From Deltaproteobacteria bacterium (GTDB lineage: Bacteria > UBA10199 > SPLOWO2-01-44-7), in NCBI GenBank assembly GCA_016213065.1, contig JACRBV010000150.1:1-38611 (forward strand): a stretch of 38,611 nucleotides of DNA. Direction: 5' to 3'. The position numbers and the translations under genes were made by a program. The notes beneath the pieces are model-generated. The model saw nothing but the letters and a program-made list of their open reading frames with translations. It was not told the origin of the DNA and did not search any database. Every line of letters starts with the position of its first letter. Position 1 is the stretch's first letter. Shown in pieces: positions 20,805 to 22,436 of this stretch.

Positions 20805-20812
20805 ATGTTTTT

Positions 20813-20832
20813 ATGGTCCATAGTCCATGGTC
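20813..20832. repeat. GTCCATG-type heptad repeat before trpG/pabA
   Basis: Nearly three 7-base units (GGTCCAT, AGTCCAT, GGTC) end 6 bases before the ATG of the amidotransferase gene, leaving no room for a normal Shine-Dalgarno. Confidence 0.75.
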
Positions 20833-20838
20833 TTTTTT

Positions 20839-21402
20839 ATGATTCTCCTTCTCGATAACTACGATTCGTTTACCTATAATCTTTATCAGGCCGTTTCCCA
20901 TTTTGGTCAGGAGGTGAAGATTGTCCGCAACGATCAGATCACTTGTGAAGAAGCGCTGAAGTTGCAACCAACTCATATCATTTTATCTCCGGGCCCAAAA
21001 ACACCGAATGAAGCGGGCATTTGCGTGGAGCTCATTCAAAAAGTGTCGGGAAGTATTCCTCTGTTGGGAGTTTGTCTGGGACATCAAGCCATTGCGATGG
21101 CGTTTGGCGGCACGATTATCCCGTCCAGAAAAATTGTTCATGGAAAAACATCCAAGATTTTTCACAAGCACGAAGGTCTTTTTCGTAACATGGACAGCCC
21201 GTTTGAAGCGACGCGCTATCATTCTCTGGCGGTGGCAAGAGAAACATTGCCGGAGTTTCTTAAAATTACCGCCACCACCGAAGACGATGAAATCATGGGT
21301 CTGGAACATGTAAAATGGCCCCTCTTCGGCATTCAGTTCCACCCCGAATCCATCCTGACACCCGCCGGAAAACAACTCCTAGAAAATTTTTTCCAGTTCT
21401 AA
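20839..21402 (+). CDS. Anthranilate/aminodeoxychorismate synthase glutamine amidotransferase subunit
   Basis: This 187-residue class I glutaminase supplies ammonia to TrpE or PabB. It begins MILLLDNYDSFTYNL and has ILSPGPKTPNEAG, the nucleophile C79 in LLGVCLGHQAIA, RYHSLAV, and the catalytic FGIQFHPESILTP. TrpG and PabA cannot be told apart here, and no trpE, pabB or other trp gene is adjacent. A heptad repeat lies directly upstream of the start, and no Shine-Dalgarno is visible. Confidence 0.92.
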   Translation: MILLLDNYDSFTYNLYQAVSHFGQEVKIVRNDQITCEEALKLQPTHIILSPGPKTPNEAGICVELIQKVSGSIPLLGVCLGHQAIAMAFGGTIIPSRKIVHGKTSKIFHKHEGLFRNMDSPFEATRYHSLAVARETLPEFLKITATTEDDEIMGLEHVKWPLFGIQFHPESILTPAGKQLLENFFQF

Positions 21403-21449
21403 CGCATTCCGCCTTGATCTCTTTTTTCTTTTAGTTAAAGGAACCGCCC

Positions 21450-21773
21450 GTGGAATTCTTTCAGACCATTCGGGAAAAGATGTTTCAGCAGACTTTGGCA
21501 TCATTGCCAAAAGGGTTTCCCCAATATACGGCCGAGCAAGAGGCTTTCCGTTCTTCCTTTCAAAAATTGCTGACAGACGACAATTTGAAGATGGTTCTCT
21601 TTCCAAAAGCTCCTCTGTGCGATGCTGATAAAGCGGTTGTAAAAGAATTTGCGAGAAAAATTAAACAGGATTCTGCTTCGGAAGAGGAGTTTCAGAATAA
21701 AGGTATTATGACGGTATATGAACCCATTGTGCCGGCAGAAGATCTCTATCTTCTTGCGAGTCTCTATTTGTAG
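21450..21773 (+). CDS. Hypothetical protein, N-terminal part of a gene split by an insertion
   Basis: This 107-residue protein is not recognised. It starts with GTG at 21450 preceded by AAAGGAA at good distance. It is mostly helical and charged and ends EDLYLLASLYL at a TAG. The same reading frame continues without another stop through a hairpin-rich stretch into the next open frame, where an IYLLPASVSDSM segment resembles the LYLLAS end of this one. It is most simply the N-terminal half of one gene of about 270 codons carrying a 210-base insertion. Confidence 0.6.
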   Translation: MEFFQTIREKMFQQTLASLPKGFPQYTAEQEAFRSSFQKLLTDDNLKMVLFPKAPLCDADKAVVKEFARKIKQDSASEEEFQNKGIMTVYEPIVPAEDLYLLASLYL

Positions 21774-21970
21774 GGGCTTGCGTCGCCCCCTCCACCGGCA
21801 AAGCCGGCGGAGCCTCCCCCTCACGTTCGCTTTGCTCACTCGGTAGATTCCCACGGGCAAGCCCGCAGAGTACCATGCGCTTGCGCATGGGTGAATGCTT
21901 CCTTTTCTCGCGCAAAGCGCGTTTTCAAAAGTGCCACGGGCTTGCCCGTGGGAATCTATCTGTTGCCGGC
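21761..21970. mobile_element. 210-bp hairpin-rich insertion (MITE/REP-like) inside a hypothetical gene
   Basis: The stretch contains several perfect hairpins, including GGCTTGCC-type arms. A perfect 22-base inverted repeat has arms at 21844-21865 and 21937-21958. Its flanks 21744-21760 and 21954-21970 form an imperfect direct repeat exactly 210 bases apart, so the reading frame is kept. The piece GCCCCCTCC-A/C-CGGCAAAG recurs at the end of the window inside holA. Confidence 0.6.
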
Positions 21971-22436
21971 CTCAGTAAGTGATTCAATGGCCACTGCAGG
22001 TCATCCGGAAGAATATAAAGAAACAAGACCCCATATTGAAGACTCCAGATTATGCCGACTGCCTTCAGAAAAACTCGCAACCTTTGCGTACTATTCCGCG
22101 ATGAGTGCATTTGGATTTGGCTCTAGCATGGTGATGGGTGTGACAAGAGAGGAGAGCGGTTTTCAATTTCATTTAGAACCCTCCTGTGTGACAGCTCAAA
22201 ATGAAGAATTAAAAACAGAAAATGTAGTCCGGTTTGATGGGATGCAAGTTTATTTGCCTGTTACTATCGAACAAGACGGAGTCAAAAAAGAAAGAACTCT
22301 TGCACTATCTGGAAGTGTCGGTCTTTGGGCGGGAGCTTCTTCGTGGGCCATGAAACATTTTGTTTCCGCAAAAATCAAAAGAACCGGTTACGCGTGCGGC
22401 CCCGCCACAGAAATTTTGGCTGTTATTAAAAGATAA
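21891..22436 (+). CDS. Hypothetical protein, C-terminal part of the split gene
   Basis: This open frame of 181 codons is in the same phase as 21450-21773. Its first 25 or so codons lie in the hairpin-rich insert. From ASVSDSMATAGHPEEYKE onward it looks like ordinary coding sequence. It has a Gly/Ser-rich central region (AFGFGSSMVMGV) and ends YACGPATEILAVIKR. No family was recognised. It has no Shine-Dalgarno of its own, so expression would need readthrough of the TAG at 21771 or internal initiation. It converges with the methyltransferase gene. Confidence 0.5.
   Translation: MNASFSRAKRVFKSATGLPVGIYLLPASVSDSMATAGHPEEYKETRPHIEDSRLCRLPSEKLATFAYYSAMSAFGFGSSMVMGVTREESGFQFHLEPSCVTAQNEELKTENVVRFDGMQVYLPVTIEQDGVKKERTLALSGSVGLWAGASSWAMKHFVSAKIKRTGYACGPATEILAVIKR

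Follow-up and report, generated by a model that had tools for sequence, protein, structure and literature searches.

A palindromic element that probably truncates an uncharacterised gene in a Deltaproteobacteria genome and lies in frame within other genes

The window analysed here is a 38,611-nucleotide stretch of DNA (contig JACRBV010000150.1, assembly GCA_016213065.1) from a Deltaproteobacteria bacterium. Its plus strand, to which the parts of the locus described below belong, carries two same-phase open frames, separated by a hairpin-rich stretch with a single TAG. The locus raises the question of whether this stretch can be translated as part of a host protein or has broken the gene in which it lies. 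An earlier note had read it as a 210-bp insertion that splits a hypothetical gene without shifting the frame and that looks able to become protein-coding, comparable to the Rickettsia palindromic elements (RPEs).

The interrupted gene and the inserted DNA

The host gene, of an uncharacterised family, extends from 21450 to 22436. It has 107 codons (21450–21770) before the TAG at 21771–21773, which is the sole separator; the frame then runs open to 22433 and ends at the stop codon 22434–22436. Uninterrupted homologues of the joined halves, which the earlier note had advised seeking, were found with the 3' half as query: each of the five same-family genomes has a single ORF of about 290–350 codons, and both window halves align along each of them, across the junction. 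The homologue junctions read, for example, LYASLYLLPT, LYASLYMLPA, and LHASLFVLPT, while the window reads LLASLY, 192 nt, and LLPA. The inserted DNA, missing from all five homologues between SLY and LLPA, is hence 21768–21959, a net in-frame insertion of 192 nt or 64 codons, and the gene is split without a frame shift as the earlier note had held. Its figure of 210 bp has to be replaced, and the flanking repeats LYLLAS and IYLLPAS, 210 nt apart, do not mark the boundaries. They are a repeat intrinsic to the host protein (compare LYASLYLLPT in a homologue); the joined host sequence LYLLASLYLLPAS is internally repetitive, with LYLLAS resembling LYLLPAS. The homologue alignment likewise rules out that the 210-bp repeat arose by duplication of a target. 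On the left, a target-like TCTAT (21763–21767), whose equivalent is present in an empty allele of the relative G004, adjoins the element. On the right, a TCTAT at 21955–21959 overlaps the end of the insert's second module, and from this one site it may be either a duplicate of the target or the terminus of the element itself. Neither Pfam nor PDB yielded a relative of the host family, no intact paralogue of the gene is present in its own genome, and none of the five same-family genomes has a homologue split like the window gene.

The insert is bipartite. Core A (21771–21840; TAGGGGC...GCTCACT), defined by an alignment of copies and a covariance model, is a 70-nt unit of three hairpins whose left end supplies the in-frame TAG. 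Module B (21844–21958), recognised by inverted-repeat search and folding, consists of 22-nt inverted repeats around two smaller hairpins. The repeats (21844–21865 and 21937–21958) are perfect, and no other inverted repeat was found in 21400–22300. Folded as DNA, the insert reaches −54.8 kcal/mol compared with −32.1 kcal/mol for shuffled sequences (z = −7.1; 0 of 200 shuffles as good). Apart from the TAG, it is fully open in the host frame. The two same-phase frames with one TAG, the perfect 22-base repeat, the abundance of hairpins, and the otherwise open frame all stand as first described. The core A hairpins have compensatory changes in five pairs in an alignment of 35 copies. Several further copies also combine core A with module B (e.g. 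C15, C60, C130, and C131), and sequence similar to module B occurs in genomes G016 and G020. Rfam matched no family in the window.

Copies of the element and the frame they occupy

The search for further copies, another suggestion of the earlier note, gave 45 blastn matches to the insert in the 1.8-Mb genome and 78 matches to core A with a covariance model made from the 35-copy alignment; the insert is not unique. Neither finding that the earlier note had named as refuting its reading was thus obtained, as the homologues are single genes and the insert is repeated. The main match lengths are 52, 82, and about 130 nt, and the differences are multiples of three. In the variant of about 130 nt (C108-type of genome G000: L108, L089, L110, and L112), the middle hairpin is replaced and 48 nt are added, also a multiple of three, and one such copy lies in frame in a PorA-like gene. 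The element occurs in 22 of 60 genomes searched, the own genome included (21 of 59 relatives), at 1 to more than 70 copies per genome. An exact pattern run over 84,980 species genomes matched 96 stretches, in records titled Deltaproteobacteria, Nitrospirae, Troglogloeales, Syntrophus/Syntrophobacterales, Bdellovibrionales, and one Actinomycetota; these matches come from metagenome-assembled genomes (MAGs), in which misbinned single contigs are possible, and the one in Actinomycetota is at the end of its contig. Phage and plasmid collections had no DNA match to the insert.

We read all six frames through every copy in the own genome. About 40% of the classifiable copies (27 of 66) are intragenic. 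Twenty-five lie within ORFs that are open on both sides in one and the same frame, antisense to the orientation of the window copy, as against two clear in-gene copies in a sense frame, one in Era and one of the two in RseP. The coding frame has the consensus SEQSEREGEAPTALPLEGATRAPII[D/E], an acidic and hydrophilic peptide of about 25 residues. NCBIfam matched the hosts of 23 of the 25 antisense copies: RseP, TilS, NuoN, a sulfurtransferase, LolA, PheT, RNase R, Dcd, PriA, GlpK, PurF (two copies), AddA, CydB, a TonB receptor, RecG, IspE, a PorA-like subunit, HpnD, and some weaker matches. Many of these proteins are conserved or essential (RNase R, PheT, PriA, RecG, GlpK, and IspE). Solved homologues of GlpK, Era, PheT, RecG, and PriA do not have the peptide, and the alignments break at it or bridge it. 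Copies at gene ends use the same coding frame in what we take, from the sequence, to be the genes for ribosomal protein L3, SufS, and a shikimate-kinase-like protein. The frame is also the one used in relatives and other lineages, in LeuS, MetG, PBP1A, AddA, RimP, BipA, QueA, and CheA-like genes, the sense-frame exceptions there being an Mfd-like gene and a YbeY gene. RseP (L068) and PurF (L088) each have two element copies. A second repeat, of the ATGGTCCATAGTCCATGGTC type, lies between genes at 20812–20836 of the window and is apparently translated as MDHGPRT-like peptides in RseP (L068) and in the RNase R of relatives (L309 and L311).

RecG proteins of relatives are without the peptide, and the element is in the same RecG loop in two families of the class, represented by the own genome (L097) and G032 (L237). 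Because G037, a member of the same family as G032, does not have it, the RecG copies suggest independent insertion into one permissive loop. The PBP1A gene of G005 contains the element and that of its congener G004 does not. The flanks of the two alleles align at 73–75% DNA identity, the net insertion is 25 codons (75 nt), and the left motif TTCTTTTAT is already in the empty G004 allele. By this alignment, the orthologous pair is a clean in-frame insertion.

Of the element's frames, three are nearly always open, and 23 of the 25 family-supported in-gene copies use one of them (binomial p about 1e-9). The target motif by itself does not account for the bias, since target-like motifs are spread about evenly over the six orientation and phase classes of coding sequence. 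Selection of the peptide as a functional tag of host proteins would explain both the strength of this bias, given that two sense frames are almost always open, and the recurrence of the same frame in other lineages. Codon-position diversity, however, carries no signal of selection on the peptide, being equal in the in-gene copies (0.139/0.172/0.214) and the others (0.136/0.152/0.206). The host proteins are functionally unrelated, and intergenic copies tilt to the same orientation, less strongly (16:8 versus 23:2 in genes; Fisher p 0.04). The preferred frame is acidic and hydrophilic while the other frames are basic or more hydrophobic, so that tolerance can account for the bias, and we consider a functional tag quite improbable. 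Stops in the coding frame are absent from the 26 in-gene copies and present in 10 of the 36 others. The simplest reading of these patterns is a passenger peptide that would be tolerated, with insertion itself perhaps modestly biased in orientation.

The element appears to enter at a defined motif. T/C-T/C-W-W-TT stands before AGGGG in 75 aligned copies, and the G004/G005 empty-site pair assigns the left motif to the target. A flanking duplication is absent at 64 of 69 copies; the other five are flanked by direct duplications of 17–51 nt. Three of these (L070, L103, and L061) stand apart from the other copies in that their direct duplications, of 25, 21, and 17 nt, are perfect. Near tRNA-Thr and tRNA-Gly genes (L099 near 1500–1680, C54:2399, and L105 near 1459–1684, C12:3859), a tRNA-gene piece of 32–51 nt is duplicated across the element, as if the duplication left the tRNA intact. 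Single-strand insertion of the Y1 type (IS200/IS605) places the target motif left of the element and makes no target duplication. The own genome has two Y1_Tnp genes, and the element was found flanking neither. Y1_Tnp was not detected in four element-bearing genomes, and its presence does not track the copies. As the mobiliser, Y1_Tnp is thus unsupported by co-occurrence or flanking position.

Fate of the interrupted gene

The window copy is sense to its gene, in the phase in which its left end reads TTG-TAG, opposite to the productive in-gene copies. In its own genome TAG is an ordinary stop that terminates 32 of 147 long ORFs, about a fifth, and copies in the same phase provide the terminal stop of genes that are presumably PabB, PlsB, and GalU, as read from their sequences. 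After the GalU-ending copy, the frame enters a separate AsnS gene. If the TAG were read through, a full-length protein with a 64-residue insert would result, for which the 192-nt insert, in frame and open but for this codon, provides the room. Yet TAG is a normal stop and same-phase copies end other genes; therefore readthrough is without support and no recoding of TAG, itself unsupported by stop usage, is needed. As the copies translated elsewhere also lie in the other orientation, we regard readthrough as highly improbable.

The downstream half could instead be a polypeptide of its own, begun inside or just after the element. A GTG at 21891, within module B, opens a 181-codon ORF, an ATG at 21987 is the other candidate restart, and the downstream half still aligns over its whole length. 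The window copy is, however, 97% identical to C15, another copy with both core A and module B, and because of this the insertion looks recent. An intact downstream half is therefore expected even in a dead gene and says little on function. No homologue is split likewise either, and two functional polypeptides are quite improbable. Two independent adjacent genes with a repeat between them are the right description of other split-looking copies, C97 (GalU/AsnS), C104, and C109, which we rejected as split genes because they are separate neighbours with the element between them. For the window gene the same arrangement is refuted, and practically out of the question, since each of the five same-family homologues is one ORF whose alignment spans the junction.

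The most likely reading of the locus, from these comparisons, is a recent disruption or inactivation of a non-essential, lineage-specific gene. The explanation as a whole, which we hold with good confidence, is that of a short palindromic mobile element, multicopy and frame-keeping elsewhere, which here gives a TAG that probably truncates its host gene. The element, core A of about 70–75 nt, in the window with module B, inserts adjoining TCTATT-like sites. In the antisense orientation it provides an open frame for an acidic, hydrophilic peptide of about 25 residues; read sense in the phase of the window, it supplies the TAG stop at its left end. The host protein would be cut after 107 codons, so that the gene has most likely become a pseudogene, and recently. 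Tolerance of the peptide as a passenger may let copies persist in the translatable frame, and copies in other frames may survive mainly between genes, at gene ends, and in dispensable genes such as that of the window. A transposase probably acts in trans to move the element; a single-strand enzyme of the Y1/RAYT type is a plausible candidate.

Comparison with known palindromic elements

In-frame 'selfish' palindromes were first described in Rickettsia and later in some REP families (PMC2229807, PMC10969869, PMC3733652). The present copies could represent one protein-coding palindromic family that has spread across several phyla of uncultured groundwater bacteria and repeatedly, in a single orientation and frame, adds nearly the same 25-residue peptide to essential proteins, RPE-like and beyond one bacterial order; we put this forward tentatively, a little short of an even chance. 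Because the coding frame is fixed in unrelated lineages of uncultured bacteria and sister genomes have empty alleles, the invasion of essential proteins by short mobile DNA becomes testable, and with it the alternatives of neutral tolerance of one frame and an insertion rule. For annotation, this means that a SEREGEAP- or EGATRAP-like peptide in these MAGs probably derives from a mobile element, and that insertion accounts for some hypothetical genes that are split.

RPEs are 105–146 bp long (PMC2229807) and decorate proteins in frame (PMC2229807, PMC10969869). The present element resembles them in being short, palindromic, multicopy, and non-autonomous (z = −7.1; 78 copies) and in carrying an open frame, which the family, the window copy with its TAG excepted, places in many unrelated conserved genes, where its translation is predicted from sequence. 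About 40% of its classifiable copies are intragenic. The likeness to RPEs that the earlier note had drawn therefore holds for the family, multicopy and in frame in many genes, and fails for the window copy, which lies in the stop-giving orientation with an in-frame TAG. The sizes differ, compared by description, with about 70–75 nt for core A and 192 nt for the window insert with module B; so do the hosts, as RPEs occur in Rickettsia and Wolbachia and the present element in MAGs titled Deltaproteobacteria, Nitrospirae, Syntrophus, and others, not Rickettsiales.

The element shares with IS200/IS605 a fixed left motif that belongs to the empty target (one empty-site pair), hairpins near the ends, and no target duplication at 64 of 69 copies; it differs in having no transposase inside and in the five copies with direct duplications of 17–51 nt. 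Module B is like a MITE in its 22-nt inverted repeats and lack of a gene. Core A, by contrast, which defines the family, lacks terminal inverted repeats, and a constant target-site duplication is absent. The element is also close to the GTAG REPs. A (G/A)TAG stands directly 5' of a GGGGC..GCCCC hairpin, which in the window reads GTAG-GGGGC..GCCCC, the copy number is high, copies are often at gene 3' ends with the tag as the TAG stop (PabB, PlsB, GalU, and others), and some are inside ORFs and encode 20–30 residues. The element differs from them in being a three-hairpin unit with one coding frame, in having ATAG rather than GTAG in most in-gene copies, and, from REP/RAYT systems, in that neither Y1_Tnp gene of the genome is flanked by it. 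The open-licence literature searched held no description of this element family. Among intragenic GTAG/CGTC REPs, some lie in ORFs and encode 20–30 residues, and the tag gives a TAG stop to neighbouring ORFs (PMC3733652). The element is a new family of the RPE or intragenic-REP kind, in which both behaviours, the translated insert and the supplied stop, are already known.
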